Assembly (NCBI GenBank): GCA_026419785.1
Contig: JAODTK010005209.1
Location: forward strand, 1-64,000
Direction: 5' to 3'
DNA length: 64,000 nt
DNA from: Sclerodactyla briareus
Taxonomy: Eukaryota > Echinodermata > Holothuroidea > Dendrochirotida > Sclerodactylidae
Shown: positions 2,946-40,060 of the stretch, in pieces
How the letters are laid out: each line of letters begins with the position of its first letter
Position numbering within the stretch: the first letter of the stretch is position 1
The notes under the pieces: generated by a model
Database searches by the model: none
Seen by the model: only the letters and a program-made list of their open reading frames with translations
What the model was told of the DNA's origin: nothing
Program-made: the position numbers and the translations under genes

Positions 2946-5090
2946 ATCTTCTTTAAAATTGTTTGACTCCCTCTTCGAATCCCCAGGAAATCCAATATTC
3001 CGGATCCGAAAATGGACAAAACGCACGCTTCTGAGGGGGGGGCCTGGGTAAACACTTGGGTGTGGTGCCCAAGTGTGAGTGTTCAGTGAGGGTGTCAATT
3101 TTTTAAAATGACCTTTCTTTCCATTTTTCTGCGTTTGAAACGTTTCAACCCCTCCTTCAAACCATATGGCAACGTACTCTATGTTATTTCGGACGTCAAT
3201 TGACAATTGAACGCCTCATATTTTAGGGTGAGGTCAATTAACATTTGAATATAAGGCACAAGTAGTGTGGCAGGTTTAAAAAGGTTGGAAACTACCGGTT
3301 CTTTCAATTCCTGAGGCTTGTTGAAATTGTGAAACTCTCCGCTATACCCTCGGCAACCACATAGTTCGGTTAAAAACTGAATATGTGACACACGTGGTGT
3401 GACTACAATTATGCATAACAACACTGTGGAAAATTATTCTGTATTTGTAGTCTATTGTTATTCCTTCTGCTATTATACCATCAGTTGACCCCAATGCTGC
3501 TTCAGACAACCTCCTAATGGTTATGGTGGTAAACATTGCCGTTACACTTTTGTGTACACATTACACTAAATAAATGCGAAATTATCATCATCATGAGTTT
3601 GAAACTGAGAAAGGTTCCTGGCGATATTTGGAGATGGAGGTTGCCTGCGGATATTGTAACTTGTTATGTTGAAGCGAGAATGTCATCGTAAATGAACACA
3701 TTTTCAAGCTAGGATATGGACACGAAGTAGGCATAGGCCTAGAGCCGTAGTGAGGGCTCAGGCTTAGCCTAGGCTATAAAGGGAGACACATCATACTTCA
3801 ACCAGTTTTCCAATCGTTTTACACTAAAGTTACGTGATCCTTCGACTGATTTGCACAAAATGAATTAGTCCTAGGCCTAGCCTAGGTCACGCATGGGGGT
3901 CAGGGGCCCTAGCCACTCAACTCAATCAAAGTAGCCTAACTTTGAAAAGAGTCTGAAGGGTTAAAATATTACTAATAGTCCTGTCGCTCAGTCTAACTGA
4001 CATTAAATCGCCTCTCAAGCTTCTCCACAACAACCAACGCTGGCATACCCCCGTTCACCAACCCCTAGTCCCAGCACTAATCTCATGACTCATCATCTAG
4101 GTAAACATGGTGTACATTATGCAATCATGCCCCATAGGCCTATGCCTTCCTATCATATTGCATGAATATATGTGCATGAGGGAAAGAAACATATGTCTAT
4201 GAGACTGAGTATGACTCCTCATTTACTTTGTGCACTCAGCAGGGATCAAATTCATGTTCACGACATGCACCACACTTGACCACAGATGAAGTGATTAAGT
4301 TCCCTTTTGTAGGGGTGTTTGGCACAGTTGATGAATGTAAATAACCTAACAATAATGGAGTATATAGAATTTCTGATCAACTGTTCTCACAAATTTTAAG
4401 GAATATTCTCTGGTGCTGTACTGCTGCTTTCCCCATGGTGGGGGGGGGGGGATGCTTGATTCACCAGCTGATTCACCGTAAAGCTGATTTCCAACGGGGT
4501 AGGATCAAGATGAATAATCTACCAGCGCAGTAACAGCAGCTGTCCCTATGCGGGCCCTGATGGGCAATTACATGTATACAACCAATGTTTAAAGTTGCTA
4601 TGAAAATGTATGCTTAGCAGCGCAATAACAAAAGCTCAAGACAAGAAAAGAATATAGATGCCCATATGCAGTACAAGCACACAGCAGCGACAAGTCAAAT
4701 GCCTCACATACAGTAATTGTCCCTAACCCTCAGCAGGCTGAAGGACGTTAGGATGGCCAGATTGGAAGTGGAAGAATGCCAAATGGGACTTATAGATAGA
4801 TAGAGAGGGCATTGGTAAGTATTGTAGAGTTCAGAAGGAATAGACACAAGTACAACAAAATAACCACCAAAACAATCAACACAACGGAATACAAGCTCAA
4901 ACTAACAGTAAACATTTTATGGATCCCCACCACAACTCGCTGGTTGGCCAGCCGTAACATCTGTAATACATATCAATGCAGGAATGCCATACATAGCATT
5001 AGGTAAATACACCTACTGTAACAACGTCAGAGTGCTGATAACATCATTATGTCACCACCCACTCAGAAAGGACACAAACAAGTAAATGGT
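2946..5090. other. no gene seen; CCTAGGCCTA-rich and simple sequence
   Basis: At 3730-3890 there are several TAGGCCTA / GCCTAGGC words, a base habit I associate with echinoderm-type genomes (inference). A G run sits at 4440-4451. The open frames of 60-80 codons have no recognisable motif. Confidence 0.5.
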
Positions 5091-5224
5091 GAGAAATGTC
5101 AACAACACTTTATTATGCCGACTATGGAACTAAGAGGCCAATTGCCAGCCAACAAAAAATCCAATAGCATGCAAAGCATGGGATTGGCCCGTGAAGACCC
5201 CAAATTAGAAACCCCCGTGCACCG

Positions 5225-5480
5225 AAAACAATGATACCGACAGGCCCACTACGCCAGACACCCGCATGGCCCACCAAGCAATGATACCGCATGGCCCTCC
5301 GCCATGATACCGCATGGCCCCCCGCCATGATACGAATGGCCCCCCGCAATGATACGGCATGGCACTAGAAACCAAGACCCCCGTGGCCACAACAGCCATA
5401 ATACCGCTGGCCCTAGCCATGATACCGCATGGCCCTGGCAACCAAAAACCCCGTGGCCCCACTAGCAATGATACCATCTG
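5225..5480. repeat. ~23-bp tandem repeat, ATGATACCGCATGGCCC unit
   Basis: Near-identical units GCCATGATACCGCATGGCCC recur at about 5280, 5300, 5325, 5348 and 5420. A few are one base shorter or longer because of C-run variation. They lie just beyond the hydrolase module, in the 3' non-coding part of the Ngaro element. They explain the open frames that run in several phases here. Confidence 0.75.
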
Positions 5481-5534
5481 GCGCAACACAAGGCCCTGCC
5501 AGACAAAAAACTGCCAAAAGCCCCCTGTAAAAAG

Positions 5535-5665
5535 TAAACTCAAGTCCCCTGGGATTAACAAGGCAGGGCTTCGAATAGATTCGGCTCGGCATGCAATTAA
5601 AATGCAACTTACCATGAAGCCCCCTGGAATTACCAAGGCAGGTCTCACTATTAGCTCCCTGCAAT
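5535..5665. repeat. 75-bp direct repeat at the 3' end of the Ngaro element
   Basis: AAGTCCCCTGGGATTAACAA at 5542 and AAGCCCCCTGGAATTACCAA at 5617 start two similar units 75 bases apart, both continuing GGCAGG. A weaker relative, GACCCCCTGGGG, lies near 5720. Ngaro elements end in split direct repeats, so these could belong to that structure. That link is inference. Confidence 0.5.
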
Positions 5666-5869
5666 AAAAAGCTAGGCGAGCTTTAATAAAGTAAAACCAA
5701 AGCAGTAATAGATTCTGAAAGACCCCCTGGGGGGATATGCCCCCCTATGTCCTTAACCTGGAACAAACCATTCCCAACCCGACCAAAACTGCCAACCCGG
5801 GCTCCATGGAGGGCCGCACCACAAAAAGGGGTTGGGAAACACAGACCACAGAACTGGCTAAAATGGGGG

Positions 5870-6460
5870 GTACCTAAAACCTTTAGGCACAGGGAAAAGA
5901 AGAGAACCCTTCGCGAACATCCTGCAGCAAAACGGTGGTTCCCAAATCGGAAAGGTGGACCCCATCCTCACGAAAAAGGCCCAGATCCTCCCATGTGAAC
6001 CCAGGTGAGAAATAACATGCCCCGCCTCTCCCAAAATACCCCCTTGCTGCCTGTTCAACCTCTTCCGACAAATCTCCCAAGCCGGGCTTAGCCCAAACAA
6101 GCTGCCGTATAACGAAAACCCGGGGCAAATATAGGACAAATAGTGCAGCCAGGGAACAACCACTGCGCTGCACCCACCGCCTCCAGAATGCACCCTCAAC
6201 TGCAACAATGTGGCCTCCCCGAGGTCATTGCCTCACAGGTGAACGACTATCGTTGTCGGCTTCCGCCTATCCCCCATGTCGAGCCGCCATATCATGCAGT
6301 CGCTGCGGTAACGACATTGCCGCTTCGCCCCGGGAGCGTCCTTTCCACACTATGTTGGCGGAAGTCACTCCCAGATCCAAATTGGATACCTCCAAGGGCG
6401 AAAGTGGCAGCCCATTTAATGTGGCTATCCCCAACGATCCACACCAGACCTGAAAATCAG
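5870..6460 (-). pseudogene. SGNH/GDSL-family hydrolase domain of the Ngaro element, broken
   Basis: Three of the family's motif blocks appear in order on the minus strand. Block I is VWIVGDSHIKWA (nucleophile Ser codon within 6432-6424). Block III is VHL, a stop, then GNDLGEATLL (6240-6215), matching the G-x-N-D block with the first Gly position now TGA. Block V is FREDGVHLSDLG (Asp and His of D-x-x-H at 5966-5955). The stretch between blocks changes frame at least twice. Lipase/esterase-like SGNH domains are reported in some Ngaro elements, where their role is unknown. The reading starts directly after the recombinase, so it is either a separate third ORF or a C-terminal extension. The in-frame stop and shifts make this copy a pseudogene unless they are sequencing errors. 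Confidence 0.85.
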
Positions 6461-6489
6461 AACTTAAAAGCCACAGTGTAAAGACAATG

Positions 6490-7490
6490 GCTTAAAACTC
6501 AACCGACCAAATTCCCCAAAGCCGTGGAGGGAGGCAGCCGAATATACACTCTTAAACACAGGAGGGACTTCCACCTAACCCACAGCTGGATCTGCCCGCA
6601 ACTAAAACCCGCTGCCGCAGCACAAGAAGCTGCCCTATGCGAAAGGAGTGCAGAAACGAAAGGGGACCCTCCTCGCTAAAAACTCAATAGCTTTCGGAGT
6701 ACACTGGAAATGCTGCCGTGAAACAGCTTGCCCGTCGGAAATGAACAAACAAGTTACCACCGACCGCTGGCCTGACCTTAACACCATAAGCCCCTAGTAA
6801 CCTCACGGGACAAATGCAGAAGCGGGGAACACCCAGGAGAAAACTGCACCCCTGCCAACGGATCGTTTGGGAACTCCCAAGACGAGACCAGACAGCTGGC
6901 CTGCTTCCACGCAATCTGCTGCCTAACTCCACCCATCGGACACTACGAACCTGATGGTGTGACGGCTACTTTCCCCCGCAACCATCCCCGTACCTCAAAA
7001 AGGCAAAGAAGTGAGTGAAAACGCTGCCTGAAATAACGTGGCCTCATAAACAGAGGAACAGACTAAAGGCAAACCCCAAGTATTCTGCCTAATGTGCCCA
7101 GCAAAATGGGACGACGCTGGTCTCGCCCCCCACTACCCGACCTTCGCAACCCCCTAACAACTTCCTCACCAAAAAATCCTCCGTATAACAGGGGAGGCCC
7201 CTCACCTCAACAGGGAAAGCCAACCCGCACAAATAGGAAGCATGTTGACGCGGCAACGACCTTGCGTGAAAGGTAAGCCACAAAACGGGCAACTCATGGC
7301 AGAAGATGGTAGCCCACTACCACAGGATACCCAGATGCTAATCTGAAAACTCTAAAGGCTTCCAAGGCACGCCTGTAAGTTACCAACGTGGAACTCGCTA
7401 CAGAAACCCCCAGCAAACGAGCGACCTCGCTGTCAAGCCGAGCTTACCGATCCAAAGGCCGTTGTTGGTAATGGCGACATCACCCTCTGG
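6490..7490 (-). pseudogene. tyrosine recombinase of the Ngaro element, frameshifted
   Basis: The N-terminal SAM-like part reads ASSTLVTYRRALEAF (7399-7355) and VARFVAYLSR (7293-7264), then GLRRSGS, D-Q-R-R-P-I and ILGVCL. The catalytic part follows. FAFLRYGD holds the first Arg (codon 6995-6993). HSFRIG holds the His-x-x-Arg pair (6650-6639). After a one-base shift, AASCAAAAGF and QLWVRWKS follow, and VYIRLPP carries the nucleophile Tyr (codon 6546-6544). So the R, H-x-x-R and Y residues are all still encoded, but in different frames and with internal stops. The enzyme family inserts DNA circles by site-specific recombination, which replaces integrase in DIRS-class elements. It sits between RNase H and the SGNH hydrolase. 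Confidence 0.9.
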
Positions 7491-7499
7491 CCTGCGGCG

Positions 7500-8000
7500 T
7501 GATGACCGGAACATATCCATGAAAAACGAGACAACGGCATCTGCAATGCCCGTTAGTTATACCTGGCACGAACGCCGCCTTAAACAAAATGTTAAACCCA
7601 AACACTGCACACCAAAAGGTTGCCGGGACAATCCCCATAACACTGGGCACCTGGCAGTCTGCCTATTCACCACCGAAACCACGCCTGGTGACAGGAACAA
7701 AAGAACCCCTTTTCCCCGCAGCAGCTCACCCCACACCTCACAGCCAGTACAATCGGTACTAGCTCTAACGCGGCAAGGAGGGGCTGGAAGCAAGAACGGC
7801 CCGGACACCTACCCTGAAACCAACTCCCATGCAAATACCTCCACAGCCAATAATACCTGCAGCATCCGTGAGAAACTGAAGCTCAGGCCCACTCTTCCAC
7901 TCCGCCTCCAAGAAGAGGGAAGCGCACCATTCAACCTGCTAAGAAAGAAGACCACGCCTCAAATCCGCCCTAGCCCCCTTCCAAACGAATCTTGTGATGG
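7500..8000 (-). pseudogene. RNase H domain of the Ngaro element, broken
   Basis: Downstream of the reverse transcriptase the minus strand reads AWSSFLSRLNGALP and then, after a frame change, LQFLTDAAGIIGCGG (7878-7840), the first RNase H block with its catalytic Asp. VVNRQTARCPVLW (7675-7640) and FVPGITNG (7574-7548, then ADAV) match the C-terminal part common to DIRS-class elements, where H-I-P-G-x-x-N-x-x-A-D is conserved. RNase H removes the RNA template during reverse transcription. Single-base shifts and stops interrupt it. The 192-codon plus-strand frame opposite (7462-8040) is an antisense by-product. Confidence 0.82.
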
Positions 8001-8039
8001 GGCCGGCCGAATACCCTTGGTAGGTCAATCATCGACGTA

Positions 8040-9060
8040 GGAAAGCCCTACCAGGAGGCACAGCTCTGCAGACGAAATTGAGCATCCCCACAAAAACTCT
8101 GCAACTCCCGGAGTGAAAACTTCCTCCTCACCAAGAGCCTCTGCAAGCAAAACCTGCAGCTTGCCTAACTTTGCTGCAAGGGACTTTACCAGGCCCGCAC
8201 TGCATCGATTTCCAGGCCCAAATAGGTCAAAGCACAACAGGACCCACAGTCTTCGCACATGCACGTGGAACCCCCAACTCCACCACACATCTGCTGAAAT
8301 GATGCACACATACCATTACAGACGAGAAAAAACCCCTACAAAAAAAAATCATCCAAGTAATGGGTAACCAACCCCTTATAAATTTCCGGGAAGCCACAAT
8401 ACCTTCGAGGAAAATTACTAAACTTCTCGAACAGGCGAACAAGAAATGGAACAAGCCCATGGTAAAACAATTATCAGGTTAAAAAAACCAACGTTAAAGG
8501 TGAAGCCTAGCAAATGAAAAATCGTCAGGATGAACTGGCAAAAGCCTAAAAGTGCCTTAATATATGACTTAGCCCAACATACGCCCCCGCCCTTAGCTGA
8601 ACCAATTGGACAGCCTGGTCAAAAGTTTTATATTGGACCGACACAACTCCTCCCTAATCCCGTCATTAACTGAAGTGCCCTGTGGTGATGGAAAGATGAT
8701 GAATTAAAAAAACGAAACTAGCATGGCTGCGATTTAAGGAACAAGCCCAAGCGGAGAAGCAATAAAACCTGCTAACGGAGGAGTGCTGAACGGCCCCGCA
8801 TGCGACCAAAGCCAACTCCTTACCACCTTACGAGAGCCACACTTGGGTTCGCACGCACAGAGAGAAGATTAGGCGGGAAAAACCCAGAGGGAGTGGCGTG
8901 TGACAAAATCCGAAACCCAAAGGAAACCCCTAGCCAGCAACAAAGCATCATCCACGGATGACTCCAAAACTCCCTACTTAGTTCCACCAGCATGGCCAAA
9001 TTTATGGGGTTGGAGCCCGCCGTAGCATACCCCTACGACCCCTTCCTCCCCTGACATGGG
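8040..9060 (-). pseudogene. reverse transcriptase of the Ngaro element, frameshifted
   Basis: In order on the minus strand: LGVSFGFRILS (near 8930-8900), NLLSVRANPSV, SPLGLVP, HLSFP-like IIFPSPQGTSVNDG (SVNDG at 8673-8659), LSNWFS and LRAGAYVG-like residues, LPVHPDDFSFA, the catalytic HYLDDFF (8362-8342), GVPRA, YLGLEID (8224-8204), AAKLGKLQVLLAEAL, and finally ELQSFCGDAQF with SMIDLPRVFGRPHHKIRL. The Y-L-D-D box, the P-x-G-x-S-V-N-D-G block and the closing R-P-H-H-K-I-R-L are hallmarks of DIRS-class reverse transcriptases. The frame changes several times and stops occur, for example after SPLGLVP. It copies the element's RNA; this copy cannot do so as written. Confidence 0.92.
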
Positions 9061-9126
9061 CACTGGACAGAGACATGCCCTGCTCCGGCACACCGGGAAC
9101 AACGGTGGCTGAACCTGCAGTCACAC

Positions 9127-9800
9127 CTACTGCACTCCCCCTGGTGAACGAGAAACAAAACCCCCCCTGCTGGCAAAAGGGCTTACCCCCTGAAGGCCAC
9201 CCTGTCCGAAAGGGTGCTGCCCTACTGCAACGTTGTCAGCCAAAGCTCTGCAGCAATCGATGCCCAAGACCTGGAGGGGTCCCGTGGCAATCCTAGCCTG
9301 AAACGGCTCGTTATAGTCACGCCACCCGAAACCCCAAAAAACCTCGATGCCCGCCGCACAAACTACCATATTTGAACAACTCTGGCGCCCGCTCAGGGTG
9401 GCCCTGGGACAGGAACAATATAGCGAACACAAGGTAAACATCCGTCCACACTTCAACAGACGGAACCTACCGTTTACCCTCTTCTCTGCCGAGGCAAACC
9501 TGAACGCACCCCCCATCACTAATGCAACAGGAACTCCCACTCGCCTTGCGAGACAAAGGGCCCCCAAAATCCACGTACTCTCCCCGCCATATTCTTTTCT
9601 TCAGAATGGAGAAGTGCTCTGACCCCAAATCATCACAAATACTAAACAACATCTGGAGCTGGCGGTCACTGGCAACGGCAAAGCAGCCCCAAACTTGCCT
9701 TGCCACCTGATACCTGCCCAAAGGCAGAACTAAGCCCTGCAGACGTAGACAAAAATACCTGATGAAGAGGGACAGAAACGCCTCACAACACATGCACTAC
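9127..9800 (-). pseudogene. Gag-like ORF1, C-terminal part, of the Ngaro element
   Basis: Minus-strand frames of 146 and 108 codons overlap here and continue one another by a frame change. The first contains RIWRGEYVDFGGPLSRK (GEYVDFG at 9586-9563), matching the G-x-Y-V-D-L block of DIRS/Ngaro ORF1. The second contains KCGRMFTLCSLYCS and GFGWRDYNEPFQAR (9333-9295), matching the closing W-x-x-Y-D-x-x-F-R block. This family of proteins is thought to act as the nucleocapsid of the element, a role inferred from position. It ends just before the reverse transcriptase, as expected. Confidence 0.7.
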
Positions 9801-10185
9801 TACACCACTAATACGCTAATAGCCCACTAACACACCAAACCCGAACCGACCAAACAGCTAGGGACAGGGGCGGGTTTCCCGCCAGAAACAGAAGCATCAA
9901 CAGTAAACTAGCTCCTCCCCACCACAAGCGATTCCAGTCCCAGCTACACTGCAGCTCGATCTAGGCAAAGTTAATGGCTGACGATATCAACCACAGTGAA
10001 CCCAGGCCCAAAAATTCCAGAAGCAGAGGCCCCTGGAGAGGCTGTCCTAAGCCCACCACCGAGCCCAAACCACCCTGGGAGTGGGACTGAGCGCCCCCAA
10101 CGCTAGTGACAGCTAGGAACAGGGGTGCTACCCGAGAGCTGAATGGGGAATAACGACCCCACCCCATCGCTAATATTAAAATTGG

Positions 10186-10383
10186 CTAGGGAAGACTCAC
10201 CTTCACTTTCCACCGCTGAGGGCGGAGGGTCCGGTCCCCTCTCGCGCCACCGTCTCTGCTGTTGGCCTGTTCACCCCAGGGGAAAAGGCCTACCGGCTCG
10301 CAGCGACTCCTAGTCCTACTAGATTTACCAGCGGGCATCGCTGGATCAATAAAAACAGCCTGCTGTAGCTGTAAATTACACAA
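10186..10383 (-). pseudogene. possible Gag-like N-terminus with a splice-donor-like end
   Basis: A 65-codon minus-strand frame contains MPAGKSSRTRSRCEPVGLFP and is rich in Arg, Gly and Pro. It ends next to AAAGTGAAGGTGAGTC (around 10205-10190), a good match to a 5' splice site. The region between here and the clear Gag part at 9800 has no convincing motif and contains stops. It could be a 5' leader exon or simply the N-terminus of ORF1 after decay. No homology is recognised, so the link to the element rests on strand, position and base composition. Confidence 0.35.
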
Positions 10384-10419
10384 ATTAGCGTGACGCTAAC
10401 CAAATATAATAACTAAAGT

Positions 10420-11270
10420 TAAAGACAAATTATTAGCAATAGCAGTAGTATACTAGTAGTAGCAGTAGTAGTAGAAACGCATGGTAAAAGTGCTGTGACA
10501 GAAGTGTGTAGTCTGCTACGAAAAACCTAAGCTAAGAATTTCCGACCGTAACAGAGAATACACACTTCCCGGAACGCGGAACGGCAAAAACAGGGAAACA
10601 TCTAGATACGTGCTGATTGTGCCAGAAAACCGAATTAAAACCGATCCAAGCCGCAGCCGATCCTGAAGAGGACTACCTGCCCCCAAATCACCTATAAAAC
10701 TCTACTACCAGACGAAATACCAGGCTTCCCAACCCCCAGCTTAACCATCCAATTCTGAAAAACCACAAAAACGAACCCCTCAATTCCCGGTACATTGTAC
10801 TGACCCTGCACACAAAACCCTCTCAACTAGCACACCTGCAGAACACTACACGCATACGCACTTGCCCACAAACAACCAAAAGCTTGTTAACGCCAGATGA
10901 CTAAAATAGTCAGAGACACCCTGCCGCAAGAAATGCAGAGTACTGTACGGATTAACCACCAGTGTCTGTGAAGGCTACCAAATAAACCATTATAAACACA
11001 TTCGTTCTTAAAATTTAAATGTGTATCAACAGTAACAACAGTAGAGTTAACTGAAAGGACGCTTTAAAACTCCCCCCGCTTGGAGAGAGGGCCCTGACTG
11101 TTCAATTTTAACTGCTCAACATGAGCAACTCTCACTTCCCCCGACTCACTTTTCAATTAAAAAACTAACCAGACTAAGCTGCTTCTTGATCAGATAAGGC
11201 CCTCTCCACTTTGGGGCCAATTTTGCACAAACTTTTCTACATAATTTGACGATGGAGAGACCGAATATCA
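10420..11270. other. 5' flank of the Ngaro element; AGTAGT simple repeat, no gene seen
   Basis: A short AGTAGTAGCAGTAGTAG tract lies at 10440-10480. The sequence stays C-rich on the plus strand to about 10990, so the element's 5' non-coding end may reach that far. Beyond 11000 composition returns to that of the background. Confidence 0.45.
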
Positions 11271-11273
11271 AGG

Positions 11274-11545
11274 GAGCGTGGTGGCCTTATTGGTTAAGGG
11301 CTTAAGGCATCGAGCTTGTAACCCAGAGGTTGTGGGTTCGAGCCTGCCACGTTGTAACCTTGAGCAAGGTACTTATCCCGCTTTTTATCTCTTCACCCAG
11401 GTGTACAAATGGGGACCGAGGTATCGTTGAACACAATTGGCGCTGATTGTAGCTGCCGCGGTATACTCTCCGGGATTGTCGCAGTGTGTGACTGGTCCCT
11501 ATGATTGGTCTTAAAAGGGCCTTTGAGTTTGAGCACTTCTGGTAG
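11274..11545 (+). mobile_element. tRNA-derived SINE, tRNA-Thr(UGU)-like head
   Basis: The head (11275-11352) folds like a tRNA: TGGCCTTATTGGTTAAGG resembles an A box, CTTGTAA gives a UGU anticodon loop, and GGTTCGAGCC is a B box. It is followed by the deuterostome SINE module CTTGAGCAAGGTACTTATCC and ACCCAGGTGTACAAATGGGG. The 3' part holds GCGGTATACTCTCCGGGATT and a TTTGAG tail, shared with the SINE at 18.2 kb. The tRNA-like part carries extra bases, so this is not a working tRNA gene. Confidence 0.88.
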
Positions 11546-12390: not shown

Positions 12391-12404
12391 TATGGTGTTA
12401 TTGT

Positions 12405-12870
12405 CGTGCCTTAAATACTTCCCTTGGATTCCTCCACAAAGCTGTGCAGTTCACAATGGAGTCGAAGCTTCCCAAAATTTCTGTATTTTGACTCGGTGAG
12501 AAATTCTTAGAGGAAACACTGATCACCAGAATGTAGATATTGCCCTCTTTTACTTTCGTAAGTGGCTCCAGTAGGTTCCAAGCCAAAAGCTCCCAAGGGC
12601 GCTGACTAGATTTCACACATATACCCTTGTGGCCTCTGAATACACTGGCTTTTACCACTTGACACTGTCTACAATCTCTCAATAAACGATCCGACACATC
12701 ACGCTTGACACGCCGTCCACCAAATTTTTCTCCTTGATCTTCCCCACTGTCTTCCGTATTCCTAGATGTTAGAATGTTGGAGCTGAATGGTAATAGTGTA
12801 ATTATTTCATGTTTCAATGATTTAGGAACAACCGACAATCTCCTATAGCCACATACCCTCTTTAGGAGGA
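12405..12870 (-). pseudogene. LTR-retrotransposon (Ty3/Gypsy-like) integrase remnant
   Basis: Within a 197-codon minus-strand frame, RRLSVVPKSLKHEIITLL matches the start of the zinc-binding part of gypsy-type integrases (usually R-x-V-V-P-x-x-L-R-x-E-I-L). RDCRQCQVVKAS (near 12675-12640) supplies the Cys-x-x-Cys pair. PWELLAWNLLEPLTKV and then EGNIYILVISVSSKNF match the beginning of the DDE core (usually P-W-x-x-V-x-x-D-L-x-G-P-L). The first catalytic Asp is replaced by Asn (AWN) and the His pair of the zinc site is not recognisable. The first 40 residues of the frame look unrelated. No matching reverse transcriptase or LTR was found nearby, so only a fragment survives. It is unrelated to the Ngaro element 2 kb away. 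Confidence 0.8.
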
Positions 12871-12994
12871 CCATCATCCAGGACACACCTTTGGGTGTGT
12901 CAAAGAACTTTTGGTCCAAAGGTCCCACTTGGGCTCGAAGGCCCATTTCATGAAATTCCACACAATGGTACTTAAATGCATCTCCTCCCACAAG

Positions 12995-13840
12995 TCTTCA
13001 ATTGATTTTATTTCAAAGTTCATGTATAGTTCTTTAGTCTCGAGCGCCATTGGGGTGTTCGGGATTTTGGGCTCAGGGCCCCATTTGGGCACTAGGGCCC
13101 CTCAGAGTGCTGTGTTCATGTCATAATGATGGTCTGATAGCCACACTTTCACAATTCCCAAGATTTTAGGACCAGTCCCAGTGTGTGGCACCCATGTCCA
13201 CATTTTGGGCCCCAGGGCTATTTGGAAAACTGCAAAATCATACAATTCTGTTGAACAGTGCTCTGGTTTGTTTCAGTATAATGGTGGTCAACAAAACCTT
13301 CAGGTGCCCAGGGATTCAGGACCCAGGCCCAGTGTGGGCCTGGGGCCCATCATGTGGAAGTTTTATTCATTCGAAGACCTCTGGCCCAATCTGAAGATCA
13401 AGTCCAAAGTTTTTGTTAACTGTAGGCAAATAGGAGGCCATTGTTTGAGACTGCTTTCTTGGCCATGATCTTGAACATTTCACATAATTGTACATATTCG
13501 TCTTGGTACAGTTGTCATTTTGTGCAGTTTGAGCTACAGCCCCATGGGTGCTCTAGTGTTGTCTTTCTCAAATCCAGCAGCATTGAACTGCCTTCTAACC
13601 AGCAAGGAATCCCAGTCACTTCGGTCTCATGACCTTCTGGCTCGGGGGCTCTTCCGATTTCCGTCTCGCCAGGCCCCCCTCGTGGTGTTCATCCACAGAT
13701 TTTTCTGACTCACAGGCCTCCTTACTCAACAATCACAGAGCATGTAACAGTACTTTGTATTCTCTTCTAATCTCCGATTACTGTTGGCAATGAATGCCTA
13801 ATAGAGTCTCCCTTCATCTTACGATGTAACAGAATACAGA
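12995..13840. repeat. two loosely similar GGGCCCA-rich segments, ~400 bp apart
   Basis: GGCCCATTTCATGAAATTCC (12941) followed by AAGTCTTCAATTGATTTTA resembles GGCCCATCATGTGGAAGTTT (13344) followed by GAAGACCTCTGGCCCAATCT. GGGCCCC words recur at 13076, 13096, 13207 and 13340. This suggests an old duplication of roughly 400 bases. No coding motif was found. Confidence 0.35.
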
Positions 13841-27179: not shown

Positions 27180-28910
27180 TGTATCAATCATCCTGCAGTT
27201 GTCCTTTACCACTCTACGACCAAAAACCGAATCGATCACCCGATTCGCCTTATCTCTTTACGTCTACCAAGAGCTTTAATTTTTCCTCATACAACAAATC
27301 TTGCAGACATTAAAATAATCTTGTAGCCCTCCTTTGAAAGTTCTCAATTAGCAGCCTATCTTTGCGCGCGAATTCCACACTTGTCATGGAATACCCAGAG
27401 GAGTCTGTACACTGCCTAAACAGCCTGTCACCAGTGTATTTGTTACGAGTACTGAGATTATATTAGTCAGCTGATAATCCAATTACCTTTCCCAGCAGCT
27501 TCACCAAGATTTTTTCCAGAATTTGCCACTTTCATTTCCTGACCATAAAACTAAAAGACATGTTAGCGTTATGATAGGCGCGTGTGCCCACTTTGCATTT
27601 TCAGCGTTCGAACATTCGCCAGTCGGAAGACCATTTGGAGTTTTGGTAGGAATCCCTAGCTTTGAACAATTATTGCAACATCATCATTTCAAGTCACACT
27701 GTGATACACTTGTGTCATCCGCAAATCACTTACCTCTAGATTGCACAGATCTGGCACCAATTGTTAATATAAGCCAAAAAGAGTAAACTAACCAAGAAAC
27801 GACCCTTAGGGAACACCACTTGTGACCTTCTCCAAGTAGAAAAACACCCATTACTGGCCATTCTCTGCACCCTCTTGTGGAGCACTCTTGAATCCACTTC
27901 AGGAACATTACTGGTAATACCCAATCTCTCCAATTTGAAAAGGAGACAGTTTATAAGGCTGCTTGTCAAAAGTTTTCTGGAACAGGAAATAATATCAACA
28001 GCTTTACTGCTGTCAATAGAACTAGTAACATCTTCCATAAATTCTAGTAGATTAGTCAAGCATTGAATGTTGAGACTCACAAATCAGATTATACTCATTG
28101 AAATAATTCCGCAGATATCTCTGAACCTGATCCCATCACTTCCAAACTATACAAGGTAAGCCTCACTGACCTGTAATTACAAGCATGAGAACGAATACCT
28201 TTCTTGAAAATAGGTGAAACATTTGCCTTCCTCCAATCCTCAGGAACCACACCTGCTAGAGTCTTATTGGTAATGAGAGCAAACGAAAAACGGAGCTTAA
28301 CTATTCCTAAGCAATTTCTCCTCAACCAAGTCAGGCATACAAACCACATCGCTAATACTATTAGGAGACACACCAATGATGTCATAATTATTGTCATGGT
28401 TTTCTCGAGTGGAAACAGAAGAGAAATAACTGTTGAGAACCCCAGACATATCCTGACTATCACTGTTCGTACCCCCCATCATTGGGTTTAACAAAGACAT
28501 GTTTGTGCTTTGCCTTTCTGCCTAACATAAGTGAAAAAATGCACAAGGATCGTCCTTAATAATGGTGGCATGTTTTTTTTATCAAAATCATGTTTTGCAT
28601 TGTAAACTAAATGTTTGATTAACTTTGGTTGAGCTTTGAGCTGATCCGATATGACAAGTAGCCTAAAAACGATAAAGACGCCACAGAATTTGTTCCCTTT
28701 CTATTGCTAGAAAAACATCCCTTGTCATCCAACATGGCTCTTTTGCTCTAATTACAGGTGCTTATTCCAAGGAATTCACACTCTCATGACCTCACAAACT
28801 TTCTCATGTAAAACCTCCCATGAGTCAGCCGACCCAACTAGTTCTAACTCTGTGGAATATTGATGGAACCACAAAACACATTAAAGATACAACAAGGGGT
28901 GTCTGACCTC
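27180..28910 (-). mobile_element. CR1-like non-LTR retrotransposon (LINE), ORF2 3' part, degenerate
   Basis: On the minus strand, reading through several frame changes: WEVLHEKVCEVMRV (28.83 kb); EPCWMTRDVFLAIERE with LWRLYRFL (28.74-28.66 kb); DMSGVLNSYFSSV (28.45 kb); GVVPEDWRKANVSPIFKKG (28253-28197) followed by NYRSVRLT; LLEFMEDVTSSIDSSKAVDI (28.05 kb); VVFPKGRFLVSLLFLAYIN (27.82-27.76 kb); the catalytic box FADDT (27725-27711); KWSSDWRMFE and KCKVG (27.6 kb); and IENFQRRATRLF with YEEKLKALG (27.3 kb). This order (linker, reverse transcriptase, thumb with Q-R-R-A-T) is that of CR1/Jockey-group ORF2. The endonuclease is missing or unrecognisable upstream. Many stops and shifts make it inactive. 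Confidence 0.92.
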
Positions 28911-39439: not shown

Positions 39440-40060
39440 TTCAGCTAGTTGAAGGATAACATCCTACAGCCCTCCCCCCTCCCTAGCTCCCCATCCCCCG
39501 TACTCGCACAAAATACCTGACATTCACAACACTCTTTGGGGTAATTATGACTAATTAATGACTACAGTATTCTTATGAACTGAATTACCTAATCACTGAC
39601 AATAAGCCGGTTCACGTTGTAATGCGCATGCTCACCATAAACAGCTTTGAAACGCCCTGACAAAAACTACACACCCTACTAGCACAAAACCAAGAATTCC
39701 CCCCATACTCATGAACAATACATCCGAGAAAGATGGTTGGATTGGTGCATTCTCATTGAGTGGTGACAGTTTGAAAAAGGCGTAAATGATAGAGTGGGGA
39801 GATTAGTGTCCATACTGGAAACTGTTTAGGGTGGCATGGCCAGAACGTGAAGACGCTCTTGTCCCATGTTTACCTATTATAATGAGAGTGGGGGAGCATC
39901 TGTGGAGTTTTGTGCTGATAGGATAGTTTAAAAATTGTTCTGCGCACTGGTCGGGCAACGTTGACTGTCGGTGTACTCCTATGACCTTTGACTCAATGAT
40001 ATCATTCATACATACCTATGAAAAGGTTGTTTCTCAGTGTCGAAGGCACCCCTTTGTCTT
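39440..40060. other. intron-like sequence, no feature seen
   Basis: It follows the donor at 39434. There is a C-rich tract at 39473-39500. No other exon or repeat can be supported. Confidence 0.4.

Follow-up and report, generated by a model that had tools for sequence, protein, structure and literature searches.

Broken remains of a tyrosine-recombinase retrotransposon, likely Ngaro-like, in a contig of the sea cucumber Sclerodactyla briareus

What kind of mobile element left the ordered but broken coding sequence found on the minus strand of a contig of the holothuroid Sclerodactyla briareus, and can it be placed within its order? The window analysed is the whole stretch of 64,000 nucleotides at positions 1 to 64,000 of contig JAODTK010005209.1 (GenBank assembly GCA_026419785.1), in which an original prediction, made from the sequence alone, had read 5100-10480 as a nearly complete Ngaro-type element. 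What lies at about 5100-10480 is a decayed tyrosine-recombinase (YR) retrotransposon on the minus strand, none of whose genes is intact. It is most likely a dead, old Ngaro-like copy with the order gag, reverse transcriptase (RT), RNase H, YR and SGNH-like hydrolase. Assignment to the YR retrotransposons rather than to gypsy is firmly supported by sequence comparison. The Ngaro subtype is the best reading and rests on architecture; it is likely, not proven.

The motifs on which the prediction was based (SVNDG, HYLDDFF, FLTDAAG and the R, H-x-x-R and Y of the recombinase) were all located in three-frame translations of the minus strand, in the stated order and scattered over broken frames, and alignment confirmed the succession of gag, RT, RNase H and YR. 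Reference elements for these alignments were obtained by scanning a collection of bacterial and archaeal genomes with a degenerate RT pattern (PLGxVPKK...R.IH.L), which gave three contigs, all untyped: L011 and L012, from metagenome-assembled genome (MAG) contigs labelled as endosymbiont of the tubeworm Escarpia laminata, and L013, from a Mariprofundus MAG. A frame-tolerant dynamic programme was run on the minus strand of 5000-11000 with six of the eight reference proteins extracted; the gag and RT-RNase H of L012 were used in tblastn only, the latter also in the tree described below, and alignments were traced for four proteins. As controls, each protein was run against 12 dinucleotide shuffles, in reversed form, against the plus strand and against 16 further combinations of 6-kb chunk and strand taken from 12001-60000. 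The L011 proteins scored 169 (gag), 556 (RT-RNase H) and 201 (YR), and the others 122 (L013 gag), 505 (L013 RT) and 126 (a partial L012 YR), against a largest control of 77. Judged from these scores, chance can be excluded as the source of the gag, RT-RNase H and YR similarity. Searches of the window with tblastn gave E = 3.7e-12 for the L011 RT-RNase H, 2.6e-12 for that of L012 and 2.1e-7 for the L011 gag; the L011 YR alone was weak (E = 0.045). With the rest of the contig included in the search, the L013 RT gave E = 1.3e-15.

When six RT-RNase H rows were put into a tree, the window joined L011, L012 and L013, split from two gypsy rows at 100/100; within the YR group the tree did not resolve the placement of the window. 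The gypsy rows were pol frames recognised by eye on two further contigs of the Escarpia laminata endosymbiont MAG (L018 and L019).

The RT occupies 7980-9041 (minus strand, as are all modules below), with SVNDG at 8673-8659 and HYLDDFF at 8362-8342, and is followed by RNase H at 7526-7979, with FLTDAAG at 7875-7855; the latter is the C-terminal part of the RT-RNase H alignment (controls up to 54), and the limit between the two domains is approximate. The alignment path to L011 runs from 9306 to 7526 with 227 of 568 residues identical, 32 frameshifts and four stops. Its part before about 9041, where two of these stops lie, overlaps gag and looks spurious from the alignment. The L013 RT aligned at 39% identity with 30 frameshifts and two stops; over the L011 and L013 RT proteins together, controls reached at most 65. 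Both aspartates of HYLDDFF, which we take to be catalytic, are retained. The YR lies at 6535-7491 (controls up to 77) and matched L011 at 110 of 306 residues, with 11 frameshifts and four stops, two of them within inserted stretches. Its alignment contains the arginine of FLRYGD (6995-6993), H-S-F-R (6650-6639), the W of RWKS and a tyrosine (6546-6544), presumably the catalytic set R, H-x-x-R, W and Y. The aligned RT-RNase H (about 9041-7526) and YR (7491-6535) fall close to the limits proposed for RT (8040-9060) and YR (6490-7490), and the similarity expected of each region, to the RT of YR elements and to tyrosine recombinases, was found in both.

Upstream of the RT, the gag-like region at 9042-9655 (controls up to 65) aligned with the L011 gag at 68 of 200 identical residues, with six frameshifts and two stops, and includes a C- and H-rich, zinc-finger-like stretch at 9134-9060. 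The probable 5' part of gag, a tentative call read from the sequence outside the frame-tolerant alignment, would cover 9656-10339. It has a possible ATG start codon at 10339-10337, reading MPAGKSSRTRSR..., and the N-terminus of this presumed gag resembles by eye the gag N-termini of L011 and L012 (MPPARA...).

With 32 frameshifts in 1,781 bases, the RT-RNase H path suggests heavy decay of this copy, and so many frameshifts and stops mean that it can no longer make a full-length protein. Pfam found nothing in 10 of 12 X-masked frames of the window (one gag and one SGNH frame were left out), and five proteins made of X-joined frame pieces gave no family, not even RVT_1; this silence is probably due to the pieces being too short and too decayed. 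A PDB search with the X-joined RT pieces returned chance-like matches only (best E 0.4). When viral contigs were scanned for relatives or for motifs of the RT and YR, none was confirmed, and the 10 motif stretches of one such scan lacked a surrounding RT.

The reference elements are better preserved. Three long, overlapping frames of L011 encode its gag, RT-RNase H and YR; Pfam RVT_1 was found in its RT frame (E = 3.5e-13) and in that of L013 (E = 1.6e-9), where RVT_thumb matched weakly as well. The L011 YR matched Phage_integrase at E = 9.9e-4, below the family cut-off, and in PDB the Tre recombinase (E = 4.6e-4) and Cre chains (from E = 0.0022) over residues 81-327 of 330. Pfam gave no family for the L011 gag and named no methyltransferase in its RT-RNase H and YR frames. 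Bacterial MAGs were thus seen to carry eukaryote-type YR retroelements (L011, L012 and L013) and, in the Escarpia laminata endosymbiont MAG, gypsy elements as well (L018 and L019); these contigs presumably represent animal contamination of the MAGs.

Beyond the YR the original prediction had listed no further coding module. At 5886-6456 of the same strand, GDS (6432-6424), GND (6232-6224) and DGVH (5966-5955) occur in what we take to be the order of SGNH hydrolase motifs, which makes an SGNH-like module after the YR likely, not proven, on motif evidence. Two stricter SGNH triple patterns found nothing in the window or in shuffles; they fail since a stop stands where the residue preceding GND should be, and the pattern was relaxed only after the sequence had been seen and the stricter patterns had failed. 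The relaxed triple was absent from 3000 shuffles of 5801-6500, occurred three times in 20 single-strand shuffles of the whole window and was found once elsewhere in the window, on the plus strand at 39762.

Placement within the YR order turns on the methyltransferase and the terminal repeats. A methyltransferase domain defines DIRS and PAT, the Dirs1-like elements having inverted repeats and the PAT elements split direct repeats, and Ngaro and Viper are defined by the absence of that domain together with split direct repeats (PMC4157794, used here, like the other papers cited, in excerpt); the same definitions of DIRS and Ngaro are given for fungi (PMC3783388). In the window 34 bases separate the end of the aligned RNase H (7526) from the start of the aligned YR (7491), or 91 bases when only the clear part of the YR, from 7434 on, is considered, and a methyltransferase in this position can be ruled out because the gap is too short. 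Pfam likewise gave no family in the three frames of 6480-7980, but it missed the RT and YR too. Ngaro is favoured over DIRS and PAT because there is no room for a methyltransferase and because an SGNH-like remnant follows the YR.

Several observations weigh against this reading. Neither split direct repeats (A1 ... B1-A2-B2) nor any significant repeat pair was found between the two ends of the element. End-to-end pairs were at chance level (4624/10408, E 3.5-4.3; 5762/9829, E 0.87-4.3), and the strong repeats within 5219-5491 are part of a 23-bp tandem array. Near the 3' end of the element, a 29-bp direct repeat at 5542-5570 and 5617-5645 (86%, E = 0.002, 75 bases apart) was rejected as a split direct repeat since it has no partner at the 5' end. 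When direct repeats of 152-236 bp were planted and searched with the same blastn scoring in 40 trials, 35-40 were recovered at 10-15% substitutions per copy and 31-32 at 20%; recovery fell to 11-14 at 25% and 3-5 at 30%, and 80-bp repeats fared worse. Split direct repeats may be undetectable at the present decay. The structural features are, by the warning of PMC4157794, homoplasious, and the subtype call rests on architecture, with the untyped L011-L013 rather than typed Ngaro or DIRS sequences in the comparison. The RT motif-A aspartate (KVDI in L011, KADL in L013) was not seen in either alignment path, an absence that fits decay and is uninformative on subtype.

The SGNH-like part adds doubts of its own. 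The call is motif-based, and Pfam (on X-joined pieces) and PDB were negative for it, the best PDB match (E 0.082) being chance-like. The A/T strand bias falls to 0.09-0.13 over 6050-6499, at this part, and L011, which has no frame of at least 90 residues after its YR on that strand, lends it no support. As excerpted, PMC6681497 reports that some members of the order at large carry a methyltransferase or a hydrolase and does not tie the hydrolase to Ngaro.

What became of the three broader claims follows from this balance. The label Ngaro-type holds for the YR class and agrees with the lack of room for a methyltransferase and with the SGNH-like remnant, but the subtype stays at likely rather than proven because the split direct repeats that define Ngaro ends were not found, perhaps being beyond detection in so decayed a copy. 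"Nearly complete" is right in that all modules are present and too generous in that the ends are not known and every coding region is broken. The limits 5100-10480 can serve only as an approximation, the 5' and 3' ends not being established, and the SGNH-like remains, which the prediction missed, run to about 5886.

The alternative that survives best is a DIRS1-like or PAT-like element whose methyltransferase has disappeared, or sits in an overlapping frame and is hidden by decay. The failure to find split direct repeats would suit it, as would the homoplasy of structure and the description of a methyltransferase-less lineage derived from Pat1 (PMC4157794). We nevertheless hold it to be unlikely: only 34 bases separate the aligned RNase H and YR, inverted terminal repeats were not found between the two ends either, nor was the internal complementary region that goes with them in DIRS1-like elements (the power simulation covered direct repeats only), and SGNH-like motifs after the YR are a feature reported for amphibian Ngaro-like elements (PMC9210276).

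Less probable still, and in our view very improbable, is that the SGNH-like part is unrelated to the element, so that what comes after the YR remnant would be motifs brought together by chance or a piece of another element. The post hoc, motif-based nature of the call, the failure of two stricter patterns, the unrelated relaxed triple at 39762, the local fall in A/T bias and the want of a long frame in L011 all lean this way; they are countered by the empty result of the 3000 regional shuffles (set beside three triples in the 20 whole-window ones), by a G/C strand bias that carries on through the region, and by a position that is the one reported for the SGNH open reading frame of Xenopus Ngaro-like elements (PMC9210276).

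A gypsy/long terminal repeat or long interspersed nuclear element (LINE) fragment misread through short motifs has next to no probability: RTs of these groups have motifs in common, and the sequence beside the 5' side looks gypsy-like by eye, but four gypsy pol pieces scored 37-48, at noise level, on the minus strand (their own plus-strand and reversed-protein controls reaching 59) against 505-556 for the RT of YR elements, the RNase H is followed by a tyrosine recombinase and no DDE integrase, and these scores and the six-row tree reject gypsy as the class, LINE references having stood outside the comparison.

With the Ngaro-like reading retained, the closest description is that of the Xenopus elements DIRS-53_XT and DIRS-54_XT, which are alike in gag, RT-RNase H, YR and the absence of a methyltransferase and would also share the SGNH-type open reading frame that follows (PMC9210276). 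The likeness is by description only; in the holothuroid copy all frames are broken and split direct repeats were not found. Xenopus Ngaro-like elements are reported to have split direct repeats and, after the YR, an SGNH frame; the repeats are missing from the consensus of DIRS-54_XT but present in two of its copies (PMC9210276). The SGNH frame is not a universal feature. L011 and L012 are collinear with the window in gag, RT-RNase H and YR, at 34-40% identical residues, and differ in their long open reading frames, in the lack (in L011) of the frame after the YR and in a subtype that is not established. Among fossils, 37 DIRS and 28 Ngaro sequences of pre-amniote age were counted in the human genome (PMC9004415). 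Again by description, these vertebrate protein fossils are, like the present copy, old, broken remains of the same order; at least five DIRS fossils among the table rows listed are 144-235 long (PMC9004415), whereas the present locus retains gag, RT-RNase H and YR together. Since fossil Ngaro and DIRS sequences are thus known from vertebrates, the locus is a new copy of an already known kind.

Other features bear on the extent of the element and its surroundings. A/T strand bias is high over about 4550-11000, with dips near 6050-6500 and 10100-10550, and so extends more widely than 5100-10480; over this range the minus strand is T-rich and mostly also G-rich, with local dips. The 23-bp tandem array at 5231-5436 (Tandem Repeats Finder: 8.8 copies, 69% matches) is presumed to belong to the 3' non-coding part, and an AATAAA at 5109-5114 of the minus strand, read from the sequence, may be a polyadenylation signal. 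The remainder of the 241-kb contig (C2591; 177,318 bases in 18 loci, L021-L038) yielded no further copy with blastn at E 1e-3 or tblastn at E 0.05. Beside the 5' side of the element, 11070-11240 and 12401-12997 of the minus strand resemble, by eye, the tail of a gypsy pol and a fragment of its integrase; 12401-12997 gave no Pfam match, and the gypsy pol of L018 scored at most 75 in any 6-kb chunk of the first 60 kb of the window. The translation of 11245-11430 (plus strand) resembles what may be a tRNA-derived short interspersed nuclear element. By eye, 27739-28478 (minus strand) looks like a decayed LINE RT fragment, with nothing in Pfam.

A living element of this kind would be transcribed and packaged with its own Gag, its RNA would be reverse-transcribed by the RT-RNase H, and insertion of the DNA copy would be the work of the tyrosine recombinase in place of a DDE integrase. 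For the hydrolase found in elements like this, no proven function is given (PMC9210276). A wider proposal, that the locus represents a Ngaro lineage with an SGNH hydrolase in a group of animals for which the module has yet to be described, and that the hydrolase is old and widely inherited rather than an amphibian peculiarity, is speculative and rather doubtful. The copy leaves the picture of the class unchanged. It displays at one site the module order of a rarer order of retrotransposons, and it can help both to annotate this genome and to trace for how long a hydrolase gene may have been part of Ngaro elements.

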